The notes beneath the pieces are model-generated. The model searched no databases, was not told the DNA's origin, and saw nothing but the letters and a program-made list of their open reading frames with translations. This document shows, piece after piece, positions 3,105 to 56,400 of a stretch of DNA of 64,000 nt. Both the position numbers and the translations under genes were made by a program. The stretch is taken from the NCBI RefSeq assembly GCF_002234675.1, contig NC_019875.2, positions 22,996,299-23,060,298 of the forward strand. The letters are read 5' to 3'. Each line of letters opens with the position of its first letter. Position 1 is the first letter of the stretch. The stretch comes from Oryzias latipes (lineage: Eukaryota > Chordata > Actinopteri > Beloniformes > Adrianichthyidae).

Positions 3105-3430
3105 TGCAGAGCCAATGTGGAGGAAGCGGTCAGAACAGCCGTCCTGCAGAGGTTAATCTGATTATTAATCCATATTGAGGATCATTCGTTAATCCAATGC
3201 ATAATCCACACGCGAACTCAGCGTTGACAATGACAAAAAGGCTTTCCGAGTGGCGTTTTCTGCAGGCAGCCCCTGAGCAGAGGAGAAGCCGCAGCGCTCC
3301 TGAGGAACTGCAGTATTCGAGGGCGGAGCTACGGGAGCGACGTAGCAACGCCGATGTTCATTATACACCGAACAGTGGGAAAGAAATGGCACAGAGGCAG
3401 CAACGTGCACGCGCTCGAAGAACAAATTAC
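3105..3430 (-). promoter_or_regulatory. slc25a24 5' UTR and putative promoter
   Basis: This stretch lies directly upstream of the slc25a24 start codon. It is locally richer in CpG than its surroundings, with a GC-box-like CCGCCC on the minus strand near 3330. No clear TATA box is placed. The transcription start cannot be fixed from sequence alone. Confidence 0.4.
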
Positions 3431-23971: not shown

Positions 23972-26900
23972 TTACTGCAAGGCCTGATTTGTTTGTGTGC
24001 AGACAGGCTCTGACTGTGGTCCATTTGCAGCTGTCACAGAGAAGCAGTAGGTGATGTTGGGGCTCAGGCTGGTGACACTTATGCTCTCTCCGTATACGGT
24101 CAGCGTCTGACTGTCGGAGCTGCCTTGTTTGGTGATCAGCAGGCTGTAATGTGAAGCATTCTCCACTGAAGACCACTGGAGCCAAATGGCTGTTGGCGTG
24201 ACCTGTGTTACCTCCAGCAGAGGAGCTGAGGCTCTTCCTGATGCAGGAAAGATGAGTGAGTTTATGGACATTAGCTGATATTTGTCACAAACAATTTAAC
24301 GACAAAAAAAGCAAATTCAATATTTTATAAACTCACCATCTGTGGACAATTGCGCCCCGAGGTCTCTCCTCCTGCGTTGCAGTACCACTAAAAAGTGAAA
24401 AAGCTCATCTTAGTTGGTGTAGAAGTTTTTAAAAAGTGCACATAAAAACAAAACTTCAGTTCCTACCATTGGGGACGCTTGCTGCTTGGCTTTCTCCTGC
24501 TGCGTTGCTCGCAGTGATCACCAGATTATTGGAAATTAGATTGAACAAAGAGCAGGATAGCGTGGTAGTGTTGCAAAGCTGGACCCTTGGCTTTACACTG
24601 TTGTCATAAAGAGTGTAGGTGGTGGCAAACACGGTCCTATTCCATGACACCTTGGCAAATGAGCTGTTACCGCTGAACACTATTCCTGTCGGTGGACAGG
24701 GAGCTGTGGGACAGACAGAAATTAAAATGAGTTTGTAAACAACTGCCTCTGTCAAATGCCTCCTTCACTTTATAGTACAAAATGCAACCACAAAGGGTGC
24801 ACAGTCCAATGCTCCGATTTGCTGGTCCAAGTCCAGGTAAAATGCAGAGGGTTGTGTCAGGATGGGCATCTGATATAAACCAAAGCCAAGTCAATCTTAC
24901 ATAGGTAGGATGTGAACCAGAGAAGTGGTATTTAGCAAAAGAGTGTCAGCAAGGATGAATAGAACAGAAGAATAGGACAAAACTTTGTGAATCTCTAGTA
25001 GGGAAATTCAATTGCTTCCAACAATAAGAGCTAAATAAATTAGTTGATAAAATTATACAAATAAAACAAATACAAGTAAGAGAATACTAGATAATAAACC
25101 AGAAAAAGTGAGACCGGGGGCAGAGCCGAAGACATTGAAGTTTCCTTTTGAAATGATGAGGATGGACAAGACCATGACTGAATCTATTAGCTCAGTTTAG
25201 ATGTTTTGGAGATAAATGCAGGGAAGCAGATTGAGATTTGGACAAGTTGAGAAGTGGGACAGTGATTATGTTTGTAAAAGGATCCTGAGGTTGGAGCAAC
25301 CAGGAAAGATGACCAGACAAAGACAAAAAAGGAGGTTCATGAAGCTGTTTGGTGTGAGCAAGGTTGTAAAGAAAAGGGTTGGATGGAGGGCTTTAGTTCA
25401 CTCTGGTGCCCCCTAAAGGGAGCATACAAAAAAACAACAGCATACATGCAGCAAGATTTCACCGATTTATAAGAACTACCTCAATATCTGCACCAGTATC
25501 TGTAAAGTCTTGGCCTCTCTATATCACCTACCTGTTGTTCCATTGAGGGGTGCAGACATGCCACTTGTTCCTGCAGAGTTCCTACTTTGCAGCATGGCAG
25601 TGTAGGATGAACTGCAGGGGAGAGGAATCTCAAAGAGATTTGTACTCGACCAGTAGGATGAGAGTTGAAACAGGTTTGACCTGTCATCTCCTTGCAGACT
25701 TCCCGTCAAAGTCAACAGGTACTCAATGTCTCCACAGGTGACATGCGTCCAGCTGAAGTGCAACAATTGCACTTCCATCTCCATTGGCAGCACCCGCACC
25801 TTGAGGCCATCGGGGGGACAAGGAGCTAAAGGACAAATTAGGAGGGGTGGAATTATTTAAGAAGAAACATTTAAAAGTTTTTCTGGAAGAAATAGATGCT
25901 TTAATACCTCCTCCAAACTGCACCAGGTCACTGAGGGAGCTGTTGCATGTCCCATCAGAGGCTTGGACAGAGAAATTGTATGACACGCCACATTTAAGAT
26001 TATCAATGGTACAGGTTGGGTTTGTGTTGTGACAATAAATGTTGTCTCCACTTCCAGCTTGTACGGTGCCAAAATAGTTTTCTGAATTTTTACTGGGAAT
26101 CCATGTTAGCAATGCAGAGCGACTGCTACAGTTGTAGGAAACTGAGACGTTATTTGGCTGGCAAGGACCTGAACAGAAAGGAAAATGAGGCAATATCAAT
26201 TTAACTAAGGTCATCGCTGTCAATGTGTCTTGATTGTTGTGGCTCTAATAAATACCTGTGCTCAGGGTTACATTTTGACTGGCCTTACTGGAGCAGTTCT
26301 CTTGACTTGCAGTCACAGAAACTGTGTACTGCTCATCACAGTGGAGCTCCGTGAGGCTGAAGCTGGTGGAGGAGGTGTTGTAAATATGCTTGTGACCATC
26401 CACAGCCGTCGCTACCACTTGGTAAAATTCAGCAACAGGAGAATAAGTCCAGGATATCACAGCACTGTGAGTTTCACAGGAAGCATCTACCGTTACATTT
26501 TTGGGAGGACAGGGCTCTGAAAAAGAAAGTTTTAATTAAACTTGGAAAAATGCTTTAGTATTTTATCTAATATAGTTAGTCATTTGTTATACTACACTCT
26601 GATTAAAAGTATTGTCAAATGTTATAAGACTTCTCCCAAAATGCAAGAGGATTTTGATTTTTTTCTTCCACTTTTTCAACAGTCATAATTTATTAATTTG
26701 CCCCTAAACTAACTTCGAACCTTGATTTCCTTAAGGGGAAAACTTATATTTAGACCAGGCAGTGCATACAGTTTATTCTTTGGAGGTACAGAAACTCAGA
26801 TGTAAAGCTGTTCATTGCCCATCTCTGCAAAGGAAATGGCTTTTTGAACAAAACTCATGATAAAGGTAGATTTTCAATAAAGTCACTTCCTAAATCCTTC

Positions 26901-29900
26901 TGTATACATATCTCTGCATGGATCAAATCAAAAGAGGATTTCAGGTAATCAAGGCTTCCCTCAAGATTTATAGCGGTGGGGAAACCAGGTTTGTAATGAA
27001 TGACAGGTTCTTGAACCAACACAAAATTAAACATTAGTGTCTTTTTGCCAGGTCATCATTGTAAATGAGAATTTGTTCTCAAGTGATCCACCTGGTAAAA
27101 TAAAGGGTAACTAAAAAGAATCAAAACTAAAGTCAGGGTAGAGATATTAGTCTTTAAAGAGCAGGATATGGCGTTTTTAGGCCAAAATTCCATATCAATT
27201 GAAAGAAAGCCGAAAAAAATTTTCACTTCTCTTGTTGATTCTTAAATGAAGAAATATATGTATCATCAGTTTTCCAATTTAAAACCCCAACGCACTTTTA
27301 TTGCTCTGCTATTTTTAGCACTTAACATAAAAATTTATAGGACTTCTACTATGACAAGGTCACACTTTTGTAGCAATACAATTATTTCCTTTTAAAATAT
27401 GAGAAATGTTCATCATTATTTACAGCTAACCTGTCATGGCTTAGGTAGATTTACTATTTTTTTTTCAAAACTATTTTTAGCATTTTTTAAATAAACGTAC
27501 CCATGCTAATTTTGTATGGAGGACTTCTCAGACTGCTGCAGCGGTTTGAAGATGCTGCGACTATGATGGTGTACTGAAGGTCACACTTTGCCCCAGACAG
27601 GTAGCAGCTGTTGCTAGTGCTGTTGCAGGTCAGAAAAGTGTGGTCACTCGCTTCCGCTGTGGCGATATATGCGGAGGTTCCCCCACTTCCCTTCAGATCC
27701 CACACCACCAGGATGGAGGAGTTGTGGCAATGAGCGAAAGCGGTGATTGCAGAGAGCAAACAGGGGGCTGATGGAGTATAGATTACATGAACTTCACTCA
27801 GCTGCACGAATAAACATTTCAAAGCTAGACTGTAGATTGGAAATACCTGTTTCCAAGCTATAAGAAGCACTTGGTTGACTGTCACACCAGCTGTTTGCAG
27901 CTGTGACTGTGAAGCTGAAAGATACACCACAGGCCAGGTCCTTCACCTCACATCTAGTGTCTGTGATAGAAGTGCAGTTGGTTGTAGAGATCCCTGAACC
28001 CACAGCTGACACTGTGTAGTTGCTCGCTCCAAGAGCAGAATCCCACGAAATCCAGGCAGAGTTTGATACACAGTCAAGGTAACCATTTACTCCTTTGGGT
28101 TGGCAGGGAGCTAAAAAAATAGGCATCAGAGTTGCTGGTAAGATGGAGGGATTTCTGCAAATACCAATGCATTTAGAAAGAAAACTGGCTCAGACCTGTC
28201 TGGATGCTTGAAGTTTGATGGGGCTGACTGAGGCAATTGCCTCTCACAGAGGTGACTTGGATGGTAAATGTTTCTCCACATGTAACATTGCTGATGGAGC
28301 ATGCAGTAGTTGTGGTGTTGCACAATTTAATGGTTCCATTCAAAGAAGTTAATGAAACCAAAAAGTGGTCAGCATCTCTGATGGCATCCCAGGAAACGGT
28401 CATGTTGTTTGACAGACATGTCATCTGGGCACTCACATTCCCAGGTGGGCAGGGGCCTGAAAACACGAAAAATATAGAATTAATCAAATGTAAGGAGTGT
28501 AGGTATCCTGTCAGGTAAAGTCACATCTCTCACCTGAGCTGAACGCCACAGGACTGCTGGGAATACTAGAGCAGTTATCATCCATAGCAACCACCTGAAC
28601 CGTGTAGAGGCTGCCACATGCAAGGCTGAGGCGACAGGTGAGACCAGATGTCTGACAGCTGTCATTAAGGTGACTGCTGATCGCGGTCACTGAGTACTGC
28701 ACAGCACCACGACTGGCAGACCAGGACACCACGGCAGAGTTGTTGGGGCAATCCAGAAACACAGAGACATTCGTGGGACTACAAGGCACTGAAAAAAGTG
28801 TAGAAATGTACAAAGGTAAGGCTAAAAACCATACTAACATTTCTTCCAAGCTCCATTTCACAAGTTTTGTTATTAAACAGCATAGCCACTAAAAGCATCC
28901 ACTTCTAACTATTCATTCTCCCAGCTTCCCTTTTAATTTGCTCACCTGACTTCACATTTGTGGTTTGACTGGAAGTGACATTACACTGTTTGTTGGAAGC
29001 TGTGACGGACACAGAGTAGTTTTGTCCACACGTCACTGCAGGAACACTGCATGAGCTGTTTTCGGTTGTGCACACTTCTGAAACGCCGGTCTCTGTTTTC
29101 ACAGTGGCGGAGTAATGCTCTGAGCCATTGCTTGGCTGCCATGTTACATTGACAGAGTTGGATTGGCAAGCCTGTGATGCAACAACTCCTGTAGGTATGC
29201 ATGGCCCTGGAAACAAAATCCCAGTTTGATTAAAACTTTGAAAAATGTTTTGCTGATTATAAAGGTAATGTTTAAACAGCACGCACAGGTCAGCACAGAG
29301 GCAGGTGCGTTGTAGTTTCCGGCACAGTGTTGGTTTTGGGGTGTGACTCTCAGACTGTAGTTTTGTCCACATATGAGCTCAGAGAAGAGAGCTGTGGTTG
29401 TGTTGGTGTGGAGACTAACTGATTGATCTCCCCCCTCGGCTGATACTGTGTACGAATAAGTCCCATTGGGAGAGTTCCAGTTCAAAGCAACAACTTTTGT
29501 TCCACAGTTAACGGTTGCATCCATATTTTGCGGTGCACAGGGGTCTGTGTGGAGACAGAAAGGTTGAGTGACATTTAAAATAATTCAAATTCTTTCATTG
29601 TCATATGATTCCCGTCATATAATTCTCAAAATCTCTCATAATCCCCAAACCTTTCGTACCTGTGTAAATGATGGAGCTGTTGCTCGGCAGGCTGCTGCAG
29701 TTGACGGCCTTTGCTCTCACTACAACAGTGTACTCCTTCCCACAGTGCAGGTCGTCCCAGGTGCAGGAGGTGGTATTGGTGAGACACTGGTGGGTGTGAC
29801 CATCGAGACCAGTTGCCACGGCAACATAGGATTCAGCACCATCGCTTTGCGTCCAGCTGACAGAGCCCTGATTAAACTTGCACTGCACTTGGGTTGTCAC

Positions 29901-32900
29901 ATTTGAGGGGATGCATGGGCCTGTGAGGAGATGATGAGAACACAAAAGGTTGAAACAAAGATTTCAACTCAATGTAATGTGATAAGAAGGGGAAAAGAAT
30001 AGCTACCTGTTTTGAAGAAGGCAGGACTGCTGGGGATGCTGTCACACACGCTGCCCTGTCCTTGAACGGTGACGTTGAACTCTTGTCCACACGGTAAAGG
30101 GGCATGCAGAAAGCTTTGTGTCAGGTTGTGGGTCTTCACATACCCACGATTCCCTGCAGTCCTGACCAGGTAATTCACAGCACCATCTGTTTGATTCCAG
30201 GAGATCTGGACCTCATCGCTTTGACAGGGAACCTGAACGGAAGGTATTTTTGGCTGGCAAGGCCCTGGAAAGGAAAGAAAGATATCAAAGAAAAAGTACA
30301 TTTTGAGAGATTTGTTCCTAGCAGCATCAGGTTAACAGGAAGAACACGAATTACCTGACATAAGAGAGATGGCGGAGCTGTCCGAGCTGTTGTACTGCAG
30401 TCCCAGAGCCTTGACCCAGACACTGTAGACAGTCCCACACATCAGGCCCGAAATGCTGCATGAGGTGGCATTGGAGCTAACACAGGAGATTTGGTGTCCA
30501 CTTTTATTGTCCACATAAGCAACATAACCAAGAGCAAAGCCAGTCTGCTGCCAGGACACTGTGGCAGCGAGAGTTTCACATTTGAAACTGGCTTGAACGT
30601 TTGTAGGGGGGCAGAGCTCTGAAAAAAAAAAAAAAAATAAAAAAAAAAAAATGCATGTGAGCTTCTTCAGACAGAAAACAAAGTCAGAAGATATGAAACC
30701 AGTTTGAGACACACCTGTCATGAGCTGGTAGGGCTCTGAGGTAACTGTGTTGTTGCAGGTAGGATCTGCCACCATCACGGTGATGTTGTAGCTCTGACTG
30801 CACTTCAGACCCACCAGGGAGCACTGGGTGTTTGTAGAGTTGCAGGTGACTGTCGGGTCTTGGTTGTTGACGGCAGCGACAGAGAATGAGCTTCCACCTT
30901 TTGCTCCGGCCCACGTTACCTGAGCAGTGCTCATGTTATATAGGACGGAGAGATTCACGGGTGCACAAGGCTCTGAAGAAAGACAGGTGAAGAGCAGCTC
31001 ATAATTGTCTGTCAAGCACCATAAGCTAGTTTGTTCAAAAATACAAAAGCTCGTGCATACCAGTGATGAGGTATCCTGCCATTAGAGTAGTTTGGTTACA
31101 AGTATCTCCAAGAGCCTTCACAGTGAGGTTGTATTTCTCTCCGCACTGCAGGGAGCTCAGCTGGCAGCTGGTGCTGTTGGTGGTGCAGCTTTTAACGTGG
31201 CCCGATGAAGTTGCTAACACGGCTACATAGTTGGAAGCTCCAGAGCTGGATTGCCAGGATGCTGTTGCTGTGTGGGCCACACAGTTCATGTTGGCCTTGA
31301 CATTGCCAAGCTCACAAGGTGCTGATGGATTTGAAAGAAACAGCAGAAGATTGAGGGATAACATTTGATTTATAGACGTCAGTTTAAAATAAAGTTACTA
31401 TACTAAAGATATTGTAAAAAGTTATTTCCAATCACATCACAAGGACAGCTTGTATCGCACATTTTGTAAGCCTTACACTTCGCTTAAGACATAGACTTAA
31501 GAAAAAAGACTGTTCTTTGTGATATGATTTGTTTTTAATCTTGTTTTTTGTAACTATCCCCTGGGCAACATTGGTGCAATGGTAGGGTGGTTCACCTTCA
31601 ATCAGAAGATTGCAGTTTGATTTCCGCCTTTCCTACCCTTGGGCAAGACACTGAACCCCACCTTTCCTCTGGTGGAAGGTTGGCACTGGGGTTTGGCAGT
31701 AAATGGGTGTGTTTGGGTGAATGGGTGAATGTGACTGTGACATTGGGCCTTCGAGGAAGGTAGAAAAGTGCTATACAAGTACGTGCCATTTATCCTCTTA
31801 AAATCAGTAGCTGTTGGCACTACGTATGACTGATTTTTACCTGTTGTAAGAGAAACAACAGAACTGTCCGAGCTGTTGTACTGCTCTCCCAGAGCCTTGA
31901 CCCAAACGCTGTAGACATTTCCACACATCAGTCCTGAAAGGTTGCAGGAAGTGGTGTTTGCACTAAAACAGGAGGTGCTGTGTCCATTTTTGTTGTCTGC
32001 ATAGGCAACGTATCCCACAGAAAGGTGACTCTGCTGCCAGGACACGGTGGCAATGAGTTTTTCACATTCCAAACTGGCTTGAACATTTGTAGGTGGGCAT
32101 GGTTCTGAAAAAGACACATGTAAACATGAGGAGAGGCTTGTGTGTGCACATCTTTTCCTGACGCAGTAACAAACCTGTCAGCAGGTGTGTCGTTTCTGAG
32201 GGCAGACTACTGCAGGCCTGATTATGTGCTGTAACCGTCACGTTGTACATCCGACTGCACTGCAGGCCGCCCAGGTGGCAGCTGCTGTTACTGCCGCCAC
32301 AGGTCACTGGGGCAACCGAGTCTGTCACAGCCTGAACTGTGTAGGAACTGGCCCCGGCTGCAGCGCTCCACGTCACCCAGGCAGCACTCGCGTTGTAGTG
32401 AGTAGAAATATTCATGGGAATGCAGGGCTCTGGAGGCAGAGGCAGGTCATCAGCTGTGCTCAGGTACAACTCCATATTAGGAACAGAAGATTCAGTCACC
32501 TGCAGTGAGGAATGTAGGAGCACTGGCAGGACCAGGGCAACCAGCGTTGATCGCCTCCACAACAACAGAGTACTTCTGCCCACAAACGAGGTCATCAAGG
32601 TTACAGGAGGATCCCATGCTGCTGCAGGAGGAGTTGTGTCCATCAGGGGAGGTTGCCTGGACATTGTTGGCTGTGAATACAGCTGTGGTCACAGTTCTCC
32701 AACTGACCACAGCATTGCGGGTCGTACAGTTCAGCTCTGCTGACAAATTGGTTGGAGGACACGGAGCTGAAATGGAAAGGAAAATTTAAAGGCACGAATT
32801 AAAGGATTTACCATCTAAGACTTAGTTCTTAACTTTGATGTATTTTTCATCAGAGTTTGTAGTCTGTGCACCAGTTTTTTGCCCATGACACTAAAACCCA

Positions 32901-35900
32901 ATGTAAGCTGATTTAAACTACAAAATGATGTGCAGTTGTGCGGAAGTATTTCCTAATCACACTGACTTTTAAAGTTCATTGTTTACAGTTTTAGATATAA
33001 AGTATTTATGAATATTTTTAAAAAGTTATGTTTTAAAAAAAAATATTCTAGGTAAAATAACAAAACATGTTATGAAAACTGAAAGTTGCAAAAGTCAGGG
33101 AGACACATTTTAATGAAACTTAGCAGTTGGTTTTCCTTCCATGTGTAAAAATGTGTTTTATTTTATGTTGTAACTTGAGAGTCCTCATGTTTTCGGTTCT
33201 TAAGTCCTAACAAAACACATTATTTGTTGTTTTGTGACATTTTCTGTAACGCGATTGTGATTCTGCACAAAAACCAATGTTTATTAAAAGCATTGCCATG
33301 AAAAAAAAATGAAACTCTTTACCGGTGTAGCTTATGATGGGAGTGCTCACATCACTCCTGCAAACATTGCTGTGTCCCATCACAGTGAAGGAGTAGAGCT
33401 GACTGCAGCTTAAATCCAGGAAGGAGCAGCTGCTGTTGCTGGATTCACAGGTGGAGTTCACACCTGAGGCAGAGGTGGCTTTCACAGTGTAGTTCTGAGC
33501 TGTGCTGTTGTCGTGCCACTTCACTGTCATGCAGTTGGAGCTACAGTTCTGCTCAACGGTTGTATTTATTGGTGCACATGGATCTGCAAGTGGATTAGAA
33601 GACAATTGATCCAGAATAGATCCACACATTACAGTGTGTATGAATGTGGAAGAGCTTCACTCACATGACTGAATCTTATAGTCAGAGCCAGCAATAACTT
33701 GGCATTTGATTGAGGAGGAGGTGACGGCCACCTCATAGATCTTGCCACACAGGAGATCGTGGATGGAGCAGGAATTTGTTGTGGAGTTGCAGGAGACTCT
33801 GTGTCCATCTGAGCTGATGGCCCAGGCGGTGTAGTCATCTGAGCCGTTAGTGTGAGTCCAGTTCACGTTAATAATGTGGGATTCACAATCTAACTTTGCC
33901 ACAATGCCTTCTGGCAAACATGGAGCTGCAGAGAACAGGTAGTTTATTTAAAGCAAACATCCTGGACTCTTATTTTTGTTTTCAAATAATATTATATTAT
34001 GCCTATGGCTCTTTTTTGTAGCAAGTGCATAAAACCAGTTTTATTTTAAATAAAAATATATCTTTGATGAAAAAACTGAATGTTAGGTTAGCTGTGCCTT
34101 ACCAGACTCAAAGAACATTACAGTGCTTTTGTTGGTGTTACAGCTCTCTGTTGAGGCTACCATCGTGGCATGGTATGTGTTTCCACAGGGCAGTTTCACC
34201 AAGCAGGAGGTGGTGTTGGAGGAGCAGGATGCCGTGTGGCCGTTCGCTCCTTTCACCTCGACTGTGTATAAACTTGCTCCACTGCTTTCAGCCCAGGAGA
34301 AGTTGGCATTGTTTGTCCCACAGTCCACATTTACGGTTAGGTTTGAGGGCTGACACGGAACTGAGGGAAACAGCAGAACGGTAACCTCACATGTGCTGCT
34401 GGTTGAATCCTCAATTTTTTGCTAGCGGAGAAGATTAAAAACGATCCTACCTGTGCTTAGTACAATGGGTGGGCTGAAGCTGCTTTGGCAATTCCCATCT
34501 TGAACTGCTAGGCTGAAAGCATATCTTTCTCCACAGGCCAGGTTAGATAGAGAAAGATAAATGTTGGGCGTGGTGTAGTCTACAGGTAGGGCTACACCGC
34601 CAATATTTTCCACCCTTATGACATAGGAAGGTGCTGCCACTGAACTCCACATGAGGTCCACTCTGCTGGTGTTGCAGTTGACGTGGGCAGTCAGGTTGGC
34701 ATGTGGACACAAAGCTGGGAAAGGTCAAGAGGTAAAGATCTTTAGAAAGCGTGCTTCTGATTTGATGTGATGTGCACCACAGCATTTTGGTGCAGATACA
34801 TCCCAGACCAGAGATGACCAAAAATAAATAAATAAAAGAAAATCTAGAAATGGTTGGACAACAAACTAGATGTGCTACCATATGTGCATAGCCTCTGGGA
34901 TTTTTTTCCTTTCGTTTATTGATTATTTACTATGTATGTGAACTAGACTAAGCAATTATTTTTTAACAATTTCAGAGAGGCTAATTGTCTTATGGCATTT
35001 CTTTTAAAAAAGCAGCATCACCAATTCCGAAGCATTTTAAACAGTAAATACCAAGCTTTCACTTAATTCTGTTTAAAAAAAAAAGCACAGTAAAAAGGAG
35101 AGTTTTCAGACTATAGAATTTCTGCATCCTGTCATTGTTCAATGCACTCACCTGCTCTCAGCTGCACCGGGGAACTTGGTTCGCTCCAGCAACTCCCATT
35201 CCCACTTACAACCGTGACAGAATATGTTTCTCCACAGTGAAGATCAGTGAAATTGCACGAGTTTGAATAGTTTGAGCTACAAGTATGAGTATGTCCATCT
35301 GCTGCTGTGGCTGTCGCAATGTACGCTTCAGCCCAAGTAGCAGTTGACCATGAGATGGTTCTGGGCTCGCAAGTCGCCAGCACAGTGACGTTACTTGGAG
35401 GACAAACACCTGAAGAGAAAACAAAACAATGAAGGTTTCATATCTGAGAAAAAATGTAAGTTACTTCAAACACTAAAAAGAACTTAAATTTTCCTCCACC
35501 TGCTCTAAATCTGTGAGGTAGACTCTGGGATCCCGTGCACGTCTGTGTGTACGCTGTGACTTCTACGCTGTAGGTTTCCCCACACTTAATGTCTGTCACT
35601 TCACAGCTGCTGGTGTTGGTGTGGCAGCTGTGGATGTCGCCTCCCAGGCTTTTTGCTGTCACATTGTACCCCAAGGCATTAGGACGCCCCACCCATGTTA
35701 TCAGTGCTGAATGATTGGAGCACAGGACTGTGGCGCTCACATTCTCTGGAGGGCAGGGGGCTGGGGAGGGAAAACAATGAAAACAGAGGCATTTGGAAAT
35801 CAGGCTTGACATTTTATTTACATCTTTTTTTAACCAAAAATTCAGAAGCACTGTAAAAATGCACAAGCTGATGATCAAATCAACCCACTGATATCAGCTT

Positions 35901-38900
35901 GTAAAAGAACAAATATGAATGGTAATTATTACAGCATAGAAAACTTAGAAAAAACTTTGTTAATCTAGAAGGAAGACCCTGGATTTGACAACAGATTAAT
36001 GTATACTAATTTTGGACCCATGATAACTCAACTACAGAGTATGAAGCTTTCATTCATCAACATCATAACCATATCTGTAACTTGTTTCCACTGTGACAAG
36101 GACACTAATTTTGATCCAAAACCCCCTATAAATACCTAGTTAAAGGTATATGCAATCTATCTTTGTTATCTGATACCATTACTACTTATGGATTTGATAA
36201 ATGATCTGCACTTGGATTGGTAAAGTATAAAAAACTCTAATTATTAGTTATGAAATGGTATATGGAATTAAAAATAGACAGTAAAGCTTTAAAGGGATGA
36301 TATGCTTCTTTCCAGTCTGTTTTAAGCAATTAACTAAATTGACAAATTTAACCTTAACATTTATTGGATTAACCGTGTTATGTATTGTATGTCAAAGTGC
36401 AAATATATCCAATTATGATTAAGAGTCAATTAAACAGCATCCAGGGGCTGCCATTAAAATTCCAATCAAATCCCTTTAAATCTTATTGAGGATTAGATAT
36501 GATTAGATTAAATAGGCCTTTATTTTTTCCTCATTAGGGAAATTCAGTGTTGCAAATATAGCTCACAGGTTCAACACATAAAGAAAAGAGAAAACAAAAA
36601 GGCAAAGAAAAAAAAGGTACAAAGTAAGCTTATGCTAGTTGTGTTTTTTCTAGAGATGTCATAACACCTCATTTACCTGTTTGAAGGGGTTCGCTGACAC
36701 TAATGCTGCTGTTGCACTCTGATCCCTGACTTTGCACAGTCAGATTTAAATCCAAGCCGCATGGAAGGCTTTGGAACACACAGCTGGCATTGCTCGTGAG
36801 GCAGCTGTCCTTGTATCCGGCTCCAACCAGCTGAGCAAGGAAGGTGAGCTTTTCAACTGGGTTGGAAAGGCTGAATACTGCAGTGTTGGTGCCACAGTTG
36901 TACTGCCTTGATATGACAGCTGGAGGACATGGAGCTAAACAGAGGAAAAATACAGGATGCATCACTTAAGTCTGCTTGGGTGAAGTTACGTACTGGATTT
37001 CCCAGTGGCTCTCACTGGTGGTGATGTTGGTGCTCGGGCCGGGAGCGCTGTCACACTGCTGTCCTTGGGCTGTGACCTTGGCCACGTAGGTCTCACTACA
37101 TGAGAGATTTGTAAGGGTGCATGAGGTTGTGGTGGTGGTGCTACAGGAAACCTGGTGCCCTTTAGTGGATTTTGCCTTCACTATGTAACCCATGGCGTCA
37201 GACACTGAAGCCCAGGACACCAGAGAGGAACTGTTGCCACAGATCAGAGTGCTACTCTGGATGGTAGGAGAACATGGAGCTGGAGGGGAGACAGTTAAGG
37301 AACAAAAATGAGTGGTGATGCAACAGAAGATTGCTTTTCCGGTTTTATTTTCATTTTACCTGTTTTAACTGTCTGTGAAGGGCTCGGGGGTCCGCTGAAG
37401 GTGTCAGAAGACACTTTGATGGAGACGTTGTAAGAGTGTCCACACTGAAGGCCACTAAGAAGACAGCTGGCGTTGTTGGTATGGCAGGTGACTGGAGGGA
37501 TGTTACCATCCATTGGCGCAGCGGTGACACTGTAGTTGAGCTGCGAGAAAGAAGCGTTCCAGCTCACCAGGAGCTCATTGGTCTCACATTTCAGGTCTGT
37601 GGTGAAATTCCAAGTAGAGCATGGCACTGACAGAAACAGATAAGTGGGAGAATGTGTTAAAGGAGCATTTAAGTTTGGGTCTTTTTTTAACAGGATTCAT
37701 AGAAAACATTGCCAAACCTCAAACCAGAGCTGAGAATAAAATAACTTTTTTTAATGGATATTTTTTATCTTTAATTATATGTTCTCTGTATACACTTGTG
37801 CCAGAGCATTGCTGGGAAGAAAATAGCCTTTAGGCATTGCTGAGTATGGTGGAAAGCAGCTTTTAAATATTCAGATAAAGTCCATTCTAACAATGGCCAC
37901 ACCTGCTTTGTTCTCCTTCTATTAAAAAAATTGTTTTCTATTTTTGAACAAAAAATTTCTAAGTTAGTCATACAGCTTTATCACAGTTATTTGATTTACA
38001 AAAGTTGCTTTATTTTTAAAGAGTCTGGCCCTCCTATGTGATGCAATAAATTATAACCAGAAATGCTGAACAGATGGGATTTTTAAAAGCTTTACATTTT
38101 TTGATCCATTAAAAAAATCAAAATTTAATTTAAAATGTATAAAAAAGTTTGAAATAGTTTTCTGCTTTTTGTACCTTGATTTTGCACAAAGGGAGCGCTG
38201 TAGTTACTAGCACATGTCCCATCCGTGGCAGATACCCGAATGTAATAGTCCTGGCCGCAGACCAGGTCACTGAGCGTGCAGTTGGAGGTGAAGCTGCTGC
38301 AAGTGATGCTGTGACTGTGGCTCGTGGCTTTTACATTGTAGCCGGCGGCGTTGGCACCAGGGCTCCAGGTCACATGAGCTGTTCCGTTGATCAGCTGGCT
38401 GGTCACGTTGGAGGGAGGGCACGGCTCTAAAGAGAGAGGACAGAAGCAGCCACTGGTTGTTTTGAGAGTTTCATAATATATTATTTAGGTTTTGCATTAG
38501 TCTCTAAGTCAAGTCAATAGTTTGTCACCTGTGTGCAGGGAGACAGGGCTGCTGTCTTGACTGAAACAGTTGTCATTTGCTCCTGAAACATGTATATAGT
38601 ACGTCTCCCCACACTGAAGCCCAGACAGACTGCATGAGGTTTGATTAGTTGTGCACTCAGACTTGTGACCTCTGTGGCTCACAGCCACAGCCGTATACTG
38701 TTTGGCGTTTATTCCAGTGGCGGCCCATGACACAGGAACAGGATCTGGAGCACAGGTGTGCATGGCTGAGACGTTGGTGGGAGGACATGGTGCTGAAGAG
38801 AAATAACATGTGAGCGGGGAGATGAAGAAGAGCTGCATAAACTTTAAAGTTGAAAGACACCTCACATGTTAACGCCGTGACCTCTGAACTCGGTGGGCTT

Positions 38901-41900
38901 AAGCACGACCCATTAAAAGAGGAAACGGTCACATTGTAGCGGCTTCCACACCTCAACCCCCTCAAAGTACAGTGGGAGTCTGTGGAGTTACAGTACAAAG
39001 GCTGGCCTGTTCCTCCAGAGATGATGGCAGAGTATTCCTCTGCAGGAGATGAACTGCTCCAGGTGATGGTCAGTTCCTCGGTGCTGCAGTTCACACTAAC
39101 CTTCACATCCTCTGGAGCACAAGGGACTGAAATATGAGAAGACAATGCGAAATTATGACATTTCCTTTAGGTTTAAATGAAGAGTTCTGACTTTAACCTT
39201 CTCTGCAGTTTCTAAATAAGTCAAGATATTTTTTCCATTTTTTCTGAATTTTATCACAGGATTTTGAGACTAAACATAATTATTTTATACTTTTTGGAAT
39301 TAAAAACCTTTTCCTACTTTAGAATACCTTAGAACTTTAAAGAGTAAACTGATATTTTATATACAAAATAATCTAATTCGGTCTTTAATTTCAGAATTTT
39401 ATGATTTAAATTTTTGTCTGGACATTTATTCCGGTTAAACTCAACATTCAGTGAACAAACACTTTTAGACTTCATGTCTCATTTTATTCTCAGAACGCTG
39501 GCGTTATCTGTAAAGTCTTTTATCTAAAAATAGTTTTTCGTTGGTTTTTAAACCAAAAAAACCCCACTATATTTTGTTATTTTTTGTTCAGTTTTACATT
39601 TTTTTCCTGAGTTTTATCTTGAAATTTTGTCATTTCTTTTAAGTAATTCAATTTTCTTTAAGACAAAAACTTTAACTCTGGAACATTGACTCACTGAAAG
39701 GGAACAATTCACTTTCTAATAGTTTGGGCATTGATGCCACCATTCCGTATTTATTTACAGATTTCTGTCTTTAAACCAATTTGTTTTTCGAATTTTAACT
39801 GTTTTTCTTTTAGAATATTGTATTTTCATTAGAATATTGTATTTTCATAAGAATTGTCAGTTGATCCTGAGAAAACCTTAATTTTTCTTCCTATTTTTTT
39901 AACCTCCCGGGTAGCAATGATTGTACTTGCAGTACCTGAGTCCATGCTAACAGGTGTTGATGTGGATGAGCAGTTTCCATTGGTGTAGGTCACGGTAACG
40001 TTTAGCTTTTTTCCACAGGGCAAAGGGCTGATGCTGCAGTTGAATCTGTCGCTGGTGCAGGTGAGCTTGGCTCCGCTCCCGTCCTCTATCATTGCTGAGT
40101 AATGGCCATAGTTTTGGTTGTTCTGCCAATTCACCACAGCATGATTGGTATCACATTCTGCGAAAGCTTCAACGTTGGCTGGAGCACAGGGTCCTGAAGA
40201 AGGAGCACATTTTAAAGTGTATTTTTTTGGGACTTTTATTAAACGTTTACAAATATTTCTGTTTTGTGGCACAGTACCTGTTGTAAACGCGACCTCCTGG
40301 CTTTGTGTGCTGTTGCAATAAAAATTATTTCCACTAACGCTGGCTGTATAATTTTGCCCACATTTTAATCCACTGATTGAGCAGCTGGTTCCCAGTGAGA
40401 AGCACTCATGCGGGTTTCCATTTGCATCTTGAGCAGTGGCATAATAGAAAATAGCTCCATTGCTTGCCAGCCAGTTGACTGTTGCAGAATCTGGGCTGCA
40501 CGTTTTTGATACCTCGACATTGGAGGGGACACATGGATCTGCAGAGAGGAGGGGAAAACATCACGTGTCAGAACGACAGTGCTACACCATCTTCTGTTAA
40601 TCTCACTGGGATTTTCATCCATACTAGTCTGAGCAGCTGGTCCCAACACATTGCCAGTGGAGCAGTTGTCATTGGAGGCAACAATCCACACGCTGAGAAA
40701 CTCGCCACACGGTACACCGGTAATTTCACAGCTATTGTTTGGGGAGGAGCATTTGTACAGTTCCCCGTTGTTCCCCATGGCTTCCACGTTGTAGAAAAGA
40801 GCTCCTGCAGACGGCTCCCAGGTTGTGATGAGTTTTCCAGTGTCACAGTGAGCAGCTGTCCTGACGTTTGTTGGCTCACAGGGAGCTGCAAGAAGAAAAC
40901 AAATATTCTCTTTCTGAAATTGTTATCCATTAAGTGAAATGACTCAAAATCCAAATCCAGAGGAAGTTCATGCTTCGAAATGAAGACATTCTACTCACAG
41001 GACTGCATGACCTTTGGCATGCTGGGTTGACTGCTGCACTCATAGCTCACTGCAAGGACTGTGTATGTGTAACGCTGACCACAGCCAATGTTGGTGAAGA
41101 AACAAGTGCTGTCCAGGGTCCTGCACAGGATCGCTTTGCCTTTGCTGTCCACAGCCGTCGCCTCGTAGTAGATGGTGTTGTTGGTGGGCTGCCAGCTGAG
41201 TACGATCATGTCAGACAAGCACACATGTTCTGTTTGAGGGTTAGCCGGAGCACAGGGCACTGAAGGATGAGAGGAAGATGGGACATTAAAAGACAGTCAC
41301 TGTAGCAGGACATGCTCATTTATGGTTAAATGGAAAAAAAAAACTCATTTGCACTTTTTTTTCTTTTTTTGGTCTACGTGACATGCTTTATTTCTTCTGA
41401 AACTTTCATAAGATGTGTGTCTCTTTTACAATTTCTTGGGATATTTCCCCTTCTCAAAAGACTGAACAGGCCTTCAGGCTGGTATTGGATGACAGGTTTC
41501 ATTGACTAATCAGAGGGCGTATTGTACAGTTTAGAACATAGGACACCTTGGGAAGAACATAAAGATCTTTCATTAAATGTTAGCGCTGCCATAAAGCAGA
41601 TGCATGCGTGACACAGTAAGATGTAAAAGGAGACGCTCAGTTAATGTATGTGCAAACGAGTGATGAAAAGTAAACAAAAGGGCAAAGAGGACTGATGTTC
41701 TCCTTTTCGGGTGTGCGGAGCTCTCACCGGTCTCAAAGATGGCCGAGGTGTTGGAGGTGCTTTCACAGCTGCCAGAAATGGCCGTGACTCGGACCTGGTA
41801 CCGCTCTCCACATGTGAGCATGCTGATCTGACAGCTGGTGGAAGCTGATGTGCAGTTCAAGGAGGCCCCTGTGCCATCAACAGCTGTGGCCCTGTACAAG

Positions 41901-44900
41901 CTGGCCCCAAACACCCCATCCCAAGAAACTGTGACAGACCCATTTGTGCAGTTGTAGGCTGTAGAGGTTGTAGTTACTGCGTTGATGGCTGAGAAAGAGG
42001 TTAAATAGGAGTAAAAGAAGGTGTTAATAATCTTTCTAAGGACCGAAGGCTAAGACACAGGGGAGTTAACCAATATAATCTGTTGATTGTACCATAAATT
42101 ATGAATTATTTTTGCTGAATAAAATATGAATGTATGCAGAAATTATTCACATGCAGATACATTTGATTCACGACCTAAATATAGCAGTAAAATCTTAGTA
42201 CAAATATCCTTAACATCTAAAATTTGAATATCTTGCATCAAAACGTTCTTACTTTGAATTAAAATGTTCTTTTTGTATAAAACATAAAACCATCGTCTTA
42301 GAACATCACATCTTTTGCCAACTGTGTTTTTAACAACCAACATGTTTACTAGTAAGTTGGAAAAAAAAGTCTACAACCAATGAGAAAAATTGGCAAAATC
42401 TTTGAATCTTTCTCTTTCTCCTGTGTAACTTTGTTGCTTTAATTTGATTAGAGCCAAATTCTATGAAGGTGGAGAAGGGAGTACCGTATGTATTACTCCA
42501 CTTTTTATGAGTCTTTAAAGTCACCTGGAATGCTATAAGAATGGGAACTAATTATCTAACTTCATTATCTTTATTACTGTGTGAATGGTGAGAAACATTG
42601 ACAGTATTTTATTTTTTTTAACATATAAAAAATTCCCAGCATGTTCTTAATTACACTGTAGCATCAAAACATTCAGTTCTTGCACAAAATTCATGCTTGT
42701 GTCTTTGGTTTGCTGATTTATTTTTAATGTTTTTTAAAAGCTTTGAATCCTTCAAGATCATAGTTTGTCAGAAAATTTGGATACTTGGGCCAGAAAAAAA
42801 TCAAAGGAAGACACAGTTACCAAAATTGAATAATTCACATTCTAGTGACACGCTTTGAGAAGCTAGGATTTTTTCATTGTTTTGCTGCATTTTATTTAAC
42901 TTTTCAGTCATAAATTTGACTCATTTTATTGACGTCTGTGCTCATTTTTTAGCTAACTTGGCAGTTAATGGATAGGAGGGTTTTTTCTGGGGGTTTTTTA
43001 ACCAGTTTTTTGGCTTGATGTACTTCTTTAGCGAATTTTGTTTTTAAAACTGAGCGCAAAGTTTTTGATATTTTAAAAAAAATATATCTATTTTTTAGCT
43101 TGAACGTGCTTTAGCAACTTCATAAACCAACTTAGGGTGTTAAGATTCACAAATGCATTTTTACTTGTTGATTTATAAAATAAGTTTTGTACTATATGTT
43201 TATCTTATTATTATTTATTTTCATAAACATGACTCTTATTTCTGCTTTGAAACAATAAGACTTTACCCTTCAGAGATGATTCAGTTAACAAAATTTTGAA
43301 CTATTATTTGTTCATGTGACCATCTTTACCCTGTTTTTTCTGATTTCATTGTACAGATCATGTTTCCTTTCATAGACAATGGGTGAAATGAAATGAACTT
43401 TACTGATACTCACAGGAGGTAGTGTATGTAACAATAGATGGCTCTCCAGGCACTAAGAAGATGTTGTATGATGATACTTCCACTGTGAACGTGGAGCAGG
43501 GCTTCAGACTTGTGAATTCTGTAGATGTGGACGAGATATTTTTGATGGCCGGGCTGTTGGGGTTGTTGGCGTCTCTCACAGTCACTAGGTACTGTAAGAC
43601 TTTGTCCACGGGGTTCCACTGAACTTGAACAGAACTGGCTGTCTTCGTGGTCACTGTCAAACCCAGAGGTGGCTGCACCACTTTCAGCAGAAAATATAAC
43701 TGTTAATTACTCACTTCTAAAAAGATCCAGAGTGATCTGTGTAAATTGATTTTGGAGAACTTACATGTTACAATGGTCCTTATGGTACTTTTGGCACCTC
43801 TTCCTGCACTGTTTTCAGCGTAAATATAACTGGCATAACGAGTCGCAGGGGACAGACCAGACACTTGTCCACTTAAAGATGTGAAAGTCCAATTAGAGCT
43901 CTTTAGAGGATCGCTGTTCAACTCTTCCACAACTAAGATATATCTGTCTGCTCCGATCACTTGAGACCACTCAAACTGCAAAGATGAGCTGTTAGTTGCT
44001 CTGGAAAATGTGATTTGAGACGTTCCAGGAACTGTGGGGATGTGAGACAAGATGTTCCACGTTATTGCTCAACTTCATCATTCAAAAAATTATGCAACGG
44101 GTTTATGAAGAGTCCCTTTTCTTACCAGTTTTTGCCGTCACAGTAACTGTACACGCAGGATTATACAGAATCTGATAAACTTTTAACGTAACCTCATATA
44201 CAGTTCCAGGTCTTAAACCTTGCACCACCCTTTCCGTGCTGGGCGACGTCTGCATTAGCATCACAGGGGCAATAGTGGTAGAGTTCACAACCCTCAAGTC
44301 TAGGACATAAACAGTCGCACCAGGGTAGCTGCTCCATTTGATTTGGAGTGTGGATGCAGAAGGAGAGGTCACCGAATCTATTTGGCATCCTGAAAAATTG
44401 AGAAAATTGTACAAAATCCAAGGATTTTTTAAATAATCAGAGGGTCATAAAGTACTAATTGGTTTCTTTTGCTTTTATTTAAGGTAAAACAGATTGTTAG
44501 TGAAAAGCGATATTCCCACAGGTCATTGAAAGTCTCTGAAGACTTTAGATATAACTTTACACAAGTCTCCTTAAACCTCTTTTTATAACCTATATGAACA
44601 GAATAATTTTATACATAAAAAATACATTTTATGTGTAAACTGACAAAAAAAGTTGGACAATAATGTTTTTAAGGCTTTTGAACTTTGACAATATTTTTAT
44701 ATGTTTTAGATGTTTGCTTTTAATTTTTTTTTCATTTGAAATAAAAAAAAGTCACATATAAATTAAAAGCTGTTGGATTCAAAGTAAAACTCCAAAGACC
44801 TTAATTGATGTAAATAAAATAACAGCAATGATGGTGCTGTTTTTTACAATTTGTTTCTTATAGGTAATACACATACTTTAAAATTAGTATTCTTTTTTCA

Positions 44901-50450: not shown

Positions 50451-53400
50451 TTATTTCACGCTTCGTCTTTGGCGAGAAATCACTTTAAAGAAAAGGGAAA
50501 AAAAAGTCAATTTTCCTGCAGTTAGTGCTAAAAGTAGAGATTTTATCAAGTAGTTTTTAGGGGTGTAACGATTCTTTAAATTATTCGATTCATATCATAA
50601 CTTGTGGTTGCCAATAGGATTCATAGTCGATATTGAATAATTTCGAACAACCCACTGAATGATTCACGGACCTAAAATCGATCCAGTACCTCTTTAGCCA
50701 AAATTCAACAGTGTGACCAACACCAATTGTGCTTCAATCCAAAGGGTATGATCAATTTGTCATTTTTCAATTATTTTTTAATGGTATGGGTCGATTTAGC
50801 TACGGGTAACAACATTCCTCACACAGATTGATCTGGTTGGATCACAGGAATATAAATTGATTCACTAATTACGTTGATTAATCGCCACACCCCTAATAGT
50901 CCAGTTATGTTCCTTATAAAAAAAGTTTTTGTTATGAATCCAAGAAAAGGAAGAGTTATGGGATTTTATTGTAAGAACGGATACTTACCCATGCCTGCGT
51001 TGCTTCCTGGACAGGGAACTGAAAGAAAGAAAAATAAATATTAATATTTGTGCATCATCTAAATATCCTGGACCACTGATGACCCACCTGAGTATGTTCT
51101 GGGCTGACAGAAGGTAACTTTGAGCCCTGACTGCCCCACTGGTGCTACAACAACCGTGTAGACATCCCCACATGTTTCCTCCTGGATATCACAGTAGGTG
51201 TTCCCTGCAGCGGCGATGCAGGTGTAGTTGGCTCCGGTCCCGTACAGCTCCACTGTGTGGTTTTGGCTCTGCAGACCCACAGATCGCCAGTAAACCCTGA
51301 GTGAATAGTTAGTCCGGCGATAGAGTTTGACACCTGTTGGACAGCATGCACCTGCAACAAAGCAAAGTTGAGTGTTTAACTAAATGTTTACATTAGTTTT
51401 GTATCATCAACATGTGATTTGTCTCCTCATCCCAGGGCTAAATTGTTCTCACTGGAAGAAAAACCACGATAGTTGCACTGTGATGTGTGCCCTGTGCTGC
51501 TGATGGCTTCCAGGTAGACACTGTAGTTGGTGCCACAGGTGATGCATCCCATCAGGCAGTGTGTGTCCAGAGTGTGGCATTTTGCGTGCCCACGTTGGGA
51601 GGTCAGTGTGGTGACGTAGGAGCGAGCTCCACCGCCAGGTGACCAGGTGACATTGGTCATTGCCTGCGTGACCTGACTCACATTCACAGAGTCTGGACAG
51701 CAGGGACCTTTGGACGGGAAAAACATGGAAAAGGTTTAGCTGCGACATTACAGAAAAAATGTCTTAAACTACACATTTGTACCTGTTTCCAGAGTTTTGC
51801 TAAACCCAGGCAGACTTCCCCCAGCTGCTGAGGTGGCCACAGCTGTGACCTCATAGGTTGTGCCACAGGGCAGCTGTGTGAGCTCACAGGAGTTATTCTT
51901 TGACTGGCATGACCCTCTGTTGTAGCGCCCAGTGGCGGTGATAGTATAGCTTGTATTGGGGAAGTTTGGGGTGGTGTAGAGGACTCTGTATGTGGAGTTG
52001 CCAGTTTGTGTCATGTTCAGAATCTCCGGAGAGCAGGGAGCTGCCAGATGGGACAAAATAAGTGATGTGTGACAAAGTTTAGTTTTGTTTTATGTATCAA
52101 AGTTACCAAAAAAAAATGCCTCTACAGTACTAATACCTGTCTCGTGCACGTTTGGGGCACAGGTACTGTTACATCCTCGTAACTCACTGCACGGGGTCAC
52201 AGTCACTGAATAAGCAGTGTTGCATCTCAGATCTGAGAGCGCGCACACCGGTGACGTGTCGTTACAGTGGATAATATCACTAGTCTCTGCTGCTGTGGTC
52301 TCATACAGCTCCGCCCCTTTGACAGGTGACCACGTGATCTCCAGGGTCTCCGTGGAAACCAGCTGCACCAGCACATCCTGAGGGCAGCAGGGTACTGGGA
52401 TGGAAAGAGTCAAGGCGGGAAATTTCAGTGAATGAAAAGATTAACACATCAGAAAGTAAACTGATTATTTTAGATATATCTCATCTCGATCCAAAATCTT
52501 ACTTGTGGTGTAGTTACGAACGTGCGCTAAAAGGCTGGGGCCTGCTTTGTTGTAGGGGAACACGCTGGTCAGGTAGGTGTAGCCGCACATGCAGGAGAAC
52601 TGGCAGGTGGTGTCCGTAGTGTTGCATAAATTCTCGGTCCCATCATCTCTCTTAATGAAGGTCACGTAGAATTCCACCAACGGCACCTCCTCCCACATGA
52701 CATAGCAGTCACCTGCTGTGGGCTCCTCCACCCAAATGTTCTCAGGGGGGCATGGGTCTGCCAAGGGAAAACAGTTTTAAATGGAGCACACAGAAATCTA
52801 GGAAATTTGTAATGGTAAAAACATAGTATAGTAGTAAATAACATAGTAAAACATATGTATAAGCACACAAGTGAACCAATACAAAAAGTTAAAAGATGGC
52901 TTGTTCAGCCAGCCAAAAAAAGTATTATAAAAACCTAACAAAGCTGACACAAAAAGTATGCCATTGAAGTAAATCAAAAAGTAAAGACAAAGAATTGTCT
53001 CTATATTAAGCTCAAAAGTTTGACATAAAAAGTATGCAATTATGGATAGTTTAAAATCTAAACTAAACTAAGTTGGCTGCATATGGAAAAAAAAAGAAGC
53101 AGTAAAGTGGCTTCTGCAAACAGTAGCCAAAATTTTGTTGTTTGTTTGTTTGTGTTTTTCCTTTGGTCACTTCACAGATAAAATTTAACAGCCGCAGTTT
53201 GTACAAAAAAAAGGAAGAAAAAAGATGAAAAATAAAATTTCATCATCATTTTGAGTGAGAATTCAAGTTATTTGTGAGATTAAACAGAAAAAGAAGAGAT
53301 CATCTGCCATTAGGGACATTGAGGGTGGATCAGGATGCAGCATAAATGTTTGTAGCCACCTGAAAAAAAAATAAAACTCCTAAACTTAATTGACTGAAGT

Positions 53401-56400
53401 CATTTTGCACAATTTCTAAATGTCCTGCCATAACCCATAAGAATCCAGGCACATTTTTTGTTAATAATAAAGTTATGTGTATGGGTTAAAGACAGAGGGA
53501 CACCAATGAAAGAAAACCCTTGCAATGTGGAATATTTCTGCACAAATAACTTGAAAGTAAAAAGTATGTTTTTGAATGAAAAAAATAATTTCCAAATGTC
53601 TTTCTTCACTGGATTTAAATAAAAAGTGCAGTGGGGCGGACTAAAAAAAAAAAAGTTGGCCAAACATATTAATATGGATTTGAAATGTAAAAATGTGAAA
53701 AGCGTGTGGTTGAGTGTTCCAAACCCACATGTAATGTAGTTGACTGATTGCGAGGGACTGCTGATTCCAGCTTCGTTGGAGGCTGTGACATAGACAGAAC
53801 GGTTCTGCCCACACTCTGCAAGCAGGATGTAACAGTTGGTGTTTCCTGTAGAACAGTTTTGGCCCGAAGTGGTCCAGGCTGTGTAGTTTTTAGCCCCCTG
53901 TACTGACACCCAATAGATCGCAATCCCCGGAGCACGTCCCTGAGTCACCTGGATGTCAATCACATCTGGACTTGAAGGGCCTGGAGAAGAAACCAGAGGA
54001 CTATCAACAGGAAAGTTGTATGACGGTAGGAGCTAAACTTGACTGGTGCTTACGTGTGATCTGGCAGACAGTCTTGTCGTCACCGATACGACCCTCAGCA
54101 TCCCAAGCCATGCTCTTGATACAGTAGGAGGTTCCCGACTGAAGGTTGTCGAAAGTGACCTCAGTGTTGGTGGTGTTCAGTTTGTTGCGGACGTAGGAGC
54201 CTTCTCGGATGATGACCAACGTATAAAGTACAGCATGCTCCACTGGAGCCCAGACAGCAAGAATGGTCTCATTGGTGGGCGAGGATGTGTTCAGTTTAGG
54301 CGCCATGACAACTACAAAAAAATGACAATCAGTGATTAATTGAAATTGGAATGCAACCAAATACAGCATAAGATCTTTTTGTGTTTTGTTTTGTGCTTTG
54401 TAACAAAAGAAAGAATGTTTTGCCTCTGATCATATTCCATCGACTCTTTCTCCAAGGCTATAACCTAATTCTCATGGTTTTCTTTTTCAAGTTATTAAAA
54501 TGGCGCAGTATAGATACAGTCGGATACAATTTCCATCTTGGCTTTACCACAACAGCGGGGAAAATCAGATAGAATAGGGGGTGAAATCATAAGCTGCAGC
54601 TGGAATAAAAAACTATTGTTGACAGCAACAACAAAAGGGTTTCGCTCCATTTTTAGTTCACTGATCTCTATCCGGGTAAACCAGTAATGTTTGTTGTCGG
54701 ACAAGGAAATACTTCTGAGAGGTCATTATAAAATAATAATGGATTAGATTCTATCTGGGCTATTCCAGACACTCAAAGCGCTTACAATGTGTCCATTATT
54801 CATTCACTCCTCATGTATACTTGGTGATGGTAGATGCGTGGCTGCCAGTTCGCGCCTACGGTCCCTCTGACCATCACCGGGACATTCATACACATTCACA
54901 CACTGGAGCCAGGGACGCTGAAGTGTCTTGCCCAAGGACACAACAACAGTTGACTGGAGGAAGCAGGGATCAAACCGCCAACCCTTCCATCATTGGACAA
55001 CCTGCTTAACCTCTCAAACCACTGCAACCCAATTGTGTTGTGTGAATGTTATCAGCAGTAGTATACTATTTTCTTATTGATAGACCCCATAAAAGAGTGT
55101 AGATGAGGTCAGATTGCATTGCTGCATATCAAATGTTTACCTGTTCTGGCCTCAGTGGGATATGAAGGTTGACTCCTTCCCCCGGAGTTGACGGACATGA
55201 CACTCAAAATGTAATCTGTATATGGCTGGAGCTGCACCACAGTGCTTGGGGATGAGGTCACATTGGTCTCGGAGAAGAAGTTCCCTGTTTTTGACTCTGC
55301 CCTCAGGATGTAGCCGGTCGCCCCCGGGACCTCTGCGAACTCGACGGTGATGCTGTCGCTGAGTTTGGAGTAGGTCTGCAGAATGCTGGGCACATCAGGG
55401 GCTGGGGAGGGCATGCACAGGAGAAAGATTATGAAGTTGTGCTACAACAATGAGAACAAAAGTCACAATTTTGAATTAAAACTGTCTTAAATTGCAAACA
55501 AATGTTCAGTTTTAACCCTTATGCTATCTTAGATGACCCCGCCTTTACATTGACGTGTTCTCCCTACCATGACAAAGGGGGATAAAGTTGGAAAGATTTC
55601 ATGTAATCCATGGACACCAGTGAAGAACACAAATCATTGAAGAAAAAAGGTTCAGCGCACTGTCTAGTGGGTCTAGATGACCCAACTCCCAATGTTAAAG
55701 TGCCTACGATAGCACCAGGGCTACAAACAAAACTTTTAAATTGCAATTGAAAACATGAAATGTTGCTTTCAAAATCATTTTCCTGGCTTTCAAAGTACAT
55801 TTTTGCGTTTGTGACACAACTGATGCGTTGCGTCGCGCCTTGCTTTCTCTCTATCTTTGATTTGTTAAATGCTTATGAAACCTGACCACAGAGAATCCAT
55901 GAAGCATTATGGTCTGTTCTCCAGGCAACACAATCCCTGCCAACCCAAAGGGTAGAGTTACAAAAATCCCGCTGCTATTGGCTGTTACTTTGAACGTCAC
56001 ATATGCTGTGGGCTGATTTCAACATTGTTTGCTAGATCTAATGAATGAAACAAGTATTTGTTATGCTTTGCTGTCCAGCTTTTAATTTGTGATTTCAAAT
56101 GTTCCAAAAGCTTATGGCCCACTGATTCTTCATATTTTGTCTCCAAATTCCCCACAGTTAATCGCTCGGCTTCATCTAATCGCCTCAATTAAAACCTACA
56201 TGAAAATAGTGGGTTAGAGAAAAATTATATACAGAACTAAAACAGTAAAAAAATTGGGTTTAGTGAGAAAAAGTTAAAATGTTTAAATTTGAGAGAAGGA
56301 ACTATGTTTTGTTAGATTTTTCTATGTAAGATTTCTAAAAATGCTGATAAATCAATAATCAGATTACTCAAAATAGTCACTTTTATTCCATTCCTAAATG

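Follow-up and report, generated by a model that had tools for sequence, protein, structure and literature searches.

Paired cysteine losses suggest a doubly disulfide-linked array of fibronectin type III domains in Oryzias latipes

Our analysis concerned a window of 64,000 nucleotides of Oryzias latipes DNA (NCBI RefSeq assembly GCF_002234675.1, contig NC_019875.2, positions 22,996,299 to 23,060,298 of the forward strand; unless stated otherwise, coordinates are those of the window). The minus strand of this window carries a large gene (23972..44389) with 39 fibronectin type III (FN3) domains and a neighbouring smaller gene with nine, here called fndc7. The core array of the large gene, domains d4-d36 (25908..41988), comprises 33 domains with a pattern of six cysteines, C1-C6. 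Based on the positions of these cysteines, their balance across domain boundaries, their paired losses in two large genes and a cysteine in the tail of fndc7, all of which were observed, we consider it likely that the d4-d36 joints are closed by two inter-domain disulfides, C5(N)-C1(N+1) and C2(N)-C6(N+1), in addition to an intra-domain C3-C4 bond. The product would be an extracellular FN3 rod with nearly every d4-d36 joint shut by two disulfides and a third inside each domain. The original prediction, made from the window alone, was of such a covalently clamped rod. Its C3-C4 pair, its boundary cluster of C2(N), C5(N), C1(N+1) and C6(N+1), and its paired loss of C2 and C6 were all recovered, the last also in a paralogous gene; the actual connectivity, like the oxidation of the cysteines and the mechanical result, is what we infer from them.

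FN3 domains were located by a hidden Markov model (HMM) search, and exon models were built with splice sites. The resulting model of the large gene (3395 residues from d1 on) is free of internal stops and places each domain in an exon of its own that has phase 1 at both ends. Pfam PF00041 (fn3) was matched at E <= 0.001 by 27 of the 33 core domains, with other families matching two, one and one members; for d37 and d38 no Pfam family was matched at 0.01. The best profile matches of the domains among solved structures were fibronectin and titin (60 listed of 197 at E <= 1). The same genome was then searched with two single domains as queries, the best candidates alone being scored. At E < 0.1 this returned our locus (C17) and one other, on contig C4 at 18.18-18.23 Mb, where an fndc7 of nine domains again adjoins a large gene, in this case of 54 domains. 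We infer that the teleost genome duplication gave rise to the two loci. Domain n of the large gene is written b17_n for the window and b4_n for the second locus. The core of the 54-domain gene is d4-d51 (48 domains), and together with the 33 in the window this gives 81 core domains and 79 core boundaries. Outside the core counts are d1-d3 of both large genes, d37-39 and d52-54, from which most of the pattern is absent, and all fndc7 domains. In the window gene a single exon encodes each modelled domain, whereas introns split d5 and d39 of the 54-domain gene (at about 18209966-18210549 and 18187754-18188000). HMM rows 14 and 15 of that gene are fragments of one intron-split domain and row 49 covers the latter part of another, and each of these domains was modelled as two exons. 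A possible small exon between its d53 and d54 was excluded from the model.

When the domain profile is aligned with fibronectin III-7 and III-10, C1 precedes strand A, C3 and C4 fall between strands C' and E, and the other three occupy connecting segments: the AB turn (C2), the EF turn (C5) and the FG loop (C6). All six cysteines are present in 22 of the 33 core domains of the window gene, so the earlier statement that most domains carry six is fair. Across the 81-domain core alignment C1 is found in 79 domains, C2 in 77, C3 and C4 in 73 each, C5 in 81 and C6 in 77. A seventh position, seen at exon ends as SC or TC in the raw frames, was ruled out, since splicing shows that these frames run into introns. 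Losses from the window-gene core confirmed the original list: C3 and C4 are missing together from d17 (34451..34714), d27 (30007-30264), d29 (29287-29544) and d35 (26256-26516), and four further joint cases occur in the 54-domain gene (d9, d19, d37 and d39). Joint absence of C3 and C4 within a domain therefore covers 8/8 cases (p 3e-11), and the pair is first among 3741 intra-domain column pairs by corrected mutual information. Chance is untenable as an explanation of this pair. C1 is missing from d4 in both genes, and C5 is never lost from either core.

The losses of C2 and C6 follow another rule. In the window gene C2 is absent from d11 (38175..38426), d22 (32175..32429) and d25 (30715..30972), which all keep C5, and C6 is absent from the domain that follows each, namely d12 (37360..37626), d23 (31841..32104) and d26 (30355..30618), which all keep C1. 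As originally described, the two are never lost from the same domain. The 54-domain gene adds a fourth case, with C2 missing from d33 and C6 from d34. Joint absence of C2(N) and C6(N+1) was thus seen in 4/4 cases, with zero unmatched cases in the 79 core boundaries of the two genes. We tested 70 cysteine pairings, within a domain or one, two or three domains apart; significance was limited to C3-C4 and C2(N)-C6(N+1), the next best pairing reaching p 0.054. By corrected mutual information C2(N)-C6(N+1) also ranks first among 7569 inter-domain column pairs when both genes are used. In 100 random re-pairings of domains C2-C6 never entered the top ten, and at the other offsets tested it ranks 2445 to 4744.

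Evidence for the other inter-domain bond comes from fndc7, whose nine FN3 domains lie at 51088..56718 on the minus strand. The name is that of the original prediction and was checked by FN3 content only. In the fndc7 genes of both loci C5 starts at d4 and C1 one domain later, at d5, a shift of one domain as inter-domain pairing needs. The prediction that fndc7 keeps C5 and C1 across boundaries held; its statement that C2 and C6 are mostly lacking was too cautious, both being absent from 9/9 domains in each gene. After d9 comes a ten-residue exon, VPCPGSNAGM (50989..51018, minus strand), with one cysteine 30 residues past the C5 of d9. The corresponding exon at the second locus, VTCLGTSIGT, likewise has a single cysteine 30 residues past the last C5, and 30 is the C5(N)-to-C1(N+1) spacing in 70 of the 79 core boundaries. 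The tail exons were modelled from splice signals, and their support is the similarity between the two copies rather than transcript evidence; the proposed last exon, VISRQRRSVK plus stop (50451..50482, minus strand), resembles VIYRGKRSLA of the second copy. This tail cysteine appears to be the best single evidence for C5(N)-C1(N+1), and it is independent of the covariation. The C5-C1 bond is probably the older of the two, because between d4/d5 and the tail the joints of fndc7 allow no other, and C2-C6 would go with the expanded paralog.

The cysteines also balance. Their count over the six columns is even at all 79 core boundaries and at all fndc7 boundaries. The scheme of C3-C4, C5(N)-C1(N+1) and C2(N)-C6(N+1) pairs 186/188 canonical cysteines in the large gene of the window, 280/282 in that of the second locus and 22/23 in each of the two fndc7 genes, and wherever one is left over, its own boundary or the tail offers an additional cysteine.

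The alternative that survives best, although we regard it as unlikely, is that complete domains hold their bonds within themselves, with C2-C5 bridging one pole, C1-C6 the opposite one and C3-C4 lying between, and with C5(N)-C1(N+1) confined to joints that lack C2 and C6 (fndc7 and boundaries 11/12, 22/23 and 25/26). According to an excerpt of PMC7140400, the 'south' loops of the FN3 domain are AB, CD and EF; the AB and EF loops thus share one pole, so geometry alone allows C2-C5. Boundaries would be balanced under this arrangement too, and the contour would be nearly as short, at 6.5-7.2 nm per domain. However, it predicts joint loss of C2 and C5, or of C1 and C6, from one domain, which was found in 0/81 core domains. 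It also leaves 10, 6, 11 and 11 canonical cysteines in the four genes (in the order given above), for the most part to pair as C5(N)-C1(N+1) anyway. Among the 3741 intra-domain pairs C2-C5 ranks 1662 and C1-C6 ranks 2157, but these ranks weigh little because C5 is invariant and C1 hardly variable in the core. We favour two inter-domain bonds over such intra-domain pairs because the joint losses cross the boundary and the fndc7 joints offer just C5 and C1.

How much the covariation can carry depends on the number of independent losses, and for C2-C6 so does the role of chance. In trees built on 82 columns 22 and 25 are sisters (99/93), as are 23 and 26 (100/94), so the four C2/C6 cases are not independent; d25 and d26 are copies of d22 and d23. 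Moreover, b4_34 joins 23 and 26 (98/86), and b17_22 with b4_33 and b17_23 with b4_34 are reciprocal best matches, so the case at the second locus is probably homologous to 22/23 and no fresh event. The 11/12 loss looks separate, because b4_11, the reciprocal best match of b17_11, retains C2 and b4_12 retains C6. The minimum number of changes on both trees is three for C2 and two for C6. The p value for C2-C6, 6.7e-7 if all four cases are independent, becomes about 3e-4 with two events and 0.013 with one. A founder effect, in which the joint losses come from one duplicated domain pair and C2 and C6 are not partners, would make use of just these features: 22/23 and 25/26 are copies which b4_33/34 match, a single origin of all four was not rejected by the approximately unbiased (AU) test, and a lone chance event would have a p value of about 0.013. 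We nevertheless hold this explanation to be improbable. The retention of C2 and C6 by b4_11 and b4_12 speaks against it, as does the grouping, in both trees, of b17_12 with b4_27 and away from 23, 26 and b4_34. Balanced boundaries are, in addition, backed separately by fndc7, by its tail and by boundary 36/37.

Several results weigh against the scheme with two inter-domain bonds. The comparison covers one genome, at two loci, and consists of sequence evidence. The first rank of C2(N)-C6(N+1) has a small margin (its score is 0.189, with the next pair at 0.173 and the best unrelated pairs at offsets of two and three domains at 0.169-0.174), and it falls to 26 of 7569 if the cases are kept to two events and to 273 if they are kept to one. 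By gene, the pair is second in the window gene alone and 226th in the 54-domain gene alone. The branch uniting b17_11 and b4_11 is weak (81/20), neither the C2 losers (p 0.66) nor the C6 losers (p 0.24) are rejected as a single clade by the AU test, and the tree that holds the C2 losers together has a higher likelihood than the quick tree. There were thus probably about two independent C2/C6 loss events at most, and possibly one, and the covariation rests on few events. That two of the three cases in the window came from one duplication had been recognised from the start and is supported by the sister pairs, but the two independent events then counted are an upper figure. Finally, two kinds of boundary that the original prediction had passed over depart from its strict scheme. 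In the whole large genes the odd boundaries, both at core ends, are 3/4 and 36/37 (51/52 in the 54-domain gene), and each has an extra cysteine. Boundary 3/4 breaks the strict scheme in both genes: C2 of d3 (43414..43680) and C1 of d4 (41728..41988) are absent, d4 keeping C2-C6, and what remains is a C5-like cysteine of d3, one alignment column after C5, and C6 of d4, its likely partner. The number stays even, and pairing, as read from the sequence, need not always obey the strict scheme. Boundary 36/37 fits only with the help of a BC-region cysteine of d37 (25532..25825), a position unseen in core domains. This domain keeps C1 and C5 but lacks C6, and the BC-region cysteine is a possible partner of C2 in d36; d52, which follows d51 in the other gene, also has a BC-region cysteine.

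Boundary 3/4, where both large genes have just the C5-like cysteine of d3 and C6 of d4, would suit crossed bonds at the joints, C2(N)-C1(N+1) and C5(N)-C6(N+1). We regard such crossing as very improbable, since C2-C1 or C5-C6 joint loss never occurs in the core, the crossed arrangement leaves over as many canonical cysteines (10, 6, 11 and 11) as the intra-domain one, and the fndc7 joints offer C5 and C1 alone.

Cysteines of secreted proteins are usually oxidised. The model of the large gene contains 123 N-glycosylation motifs in its 3395 residues, which suggests a secreted protein. A strict scan gave no candidate signal-peptide exon, and a looser scan gave none for the large gene or for the fndc7 of the second locus; the looser scan found two candidates upstream of the smaller gene here and two upstream of the 54-domain gene, none of them tied to its gene. 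That the four boundary cysteines bind metal, or bond other molecules, rather than close the joint is very improbable, for although four per boundary is the number of a metal site and a few cysteines lack a partner whichever scheme is applied, the glycosylation motifs point to secretion and the fndc7 joints hold just two cysteines.

The proposed bonds would have a marked mechanical effect. Assuming 0.38 nm per residue and 0.55 nm per disulfide, we computed for the core domains of the large genes a shortest covalent path of 5.8-6.6 nm each with the bonds of our scheme and of about 33 nm without bonds. For fndc7, or with C5-C1 alone, the path is 19-20 nm. Crossed bonds would give 5.0-6.0 nm, and intra-domain bonds the range already stated. 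Since the path is short under all three pairings, near-inextensibility would be independent of the exact pairing, and the protein would be nearly inextensible even with its domains unfolded. In the textbook picture FN3 arrays resemble beads on a string, able to unfold and lengthen when loaded, and a bolted family would act oppositely. If the proposal is true, these proteins would be a natural model for building rigid FN3 scaffolds, and a family on whose function little has been published would gain a mechanical hypothesis that can be tested.

Class I cytokine receptors likewise combine FN3 domains with disulfides, but theirs lie within domains and are not part of a long array. The large gene adjoins fndc7 at both loci and has a domain plan in common with FNDC7 (fndc7, fndc7rs), three leading domains without the pattern followed by domains with C1, C3, C4 and C5; the large genes differ in having 39 and 54 domains against nine and in the addition of C2 and C6. 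The arrays of fibronectin, tenascin and titin hold the same domain family in long tandem. Their FN3 domains are described as disulfide-free, following an account of FN3 domains in PMC7140400, whereas up to six cysteines per domain and balanced clusters at the joints are found here. Among the structure matches mentioned above, three chains were aligned and none has the cysteine set. There is a likeness in working with pilins, where, according to an excerpt of PMC8355295, covalent isopeptide cross-links render the chain inextensible; the bond and the proteins are different, and we claim no kinship. Our literature search, which covered few subscription journals, brought up no paper, among those listed, that combines FN3 domains with inter-domain disulfides.

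A gene table of mouse cochlear supporting cells in PMC5137903 ranks Fndc7 eighth with a value of 137.82, apparently a fold change, and zebrafish neuromast support cells are marked by fndc7a and fndc7rs4 in an excerpt of PMC6363392. Our guess is that the product of the large gene might lie in an extracellular gel or cable of supporting cells. It is possible, and we advance it tentatively, that, mechanically, the FNDC7 family represents a new class of FN3 protein: a disulfide-tied chain with a single bond per joint in FNDC7 (and so perhaps also in mammals) and a pair of bonds per joint in the giant paralogs of fish, forming a near-inextensible extracellular cable that supporting cells of the inner ear and lateral line may lay down.

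Some cysteines stand outside the six columns. The first domain of each large gene (44126-44389 in the window) has one at the beginning and another in the FG/G region; as there is no preceding domain, these two may pair within the domain. The last domain of both has two. In both fndc7 copies d6 (52137-52394), d8 (51453-51707) and d9 (51088-51351), but neither d5 nor d7, contain PCC, in which the second cysteine comes right after C1, together with a late G-region cysteine; this suggests a further intra-domain bond in these three domains. Both fndc7 genes also have two more cysteines in d5 and two more in d6, and d3 has two extra here and none in the second copy. Single cysteines with no obvious partner were seen in d20 of the window gene (33323-33583), in d2 and d29 of the 54-domain gene and in d8 (LMGC) of both fndc7 genes, and those of d20 and fndc7 d8 could serve intermolecular cross-linking.

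Elsewhere in the window, positions 2814-3152 on the minus strand hold a frame with an EF-hand match in Pfam, which we take to be SLC25A24-like, and positions 21838-22569 on the plus strand hold an arginine/serine-rich frame without a Pfam match, presumably PRPF38B-like. On that assumption, the two frames would be in keeping with the gene neighbourhood of FNDC7 on human chromosome 1.

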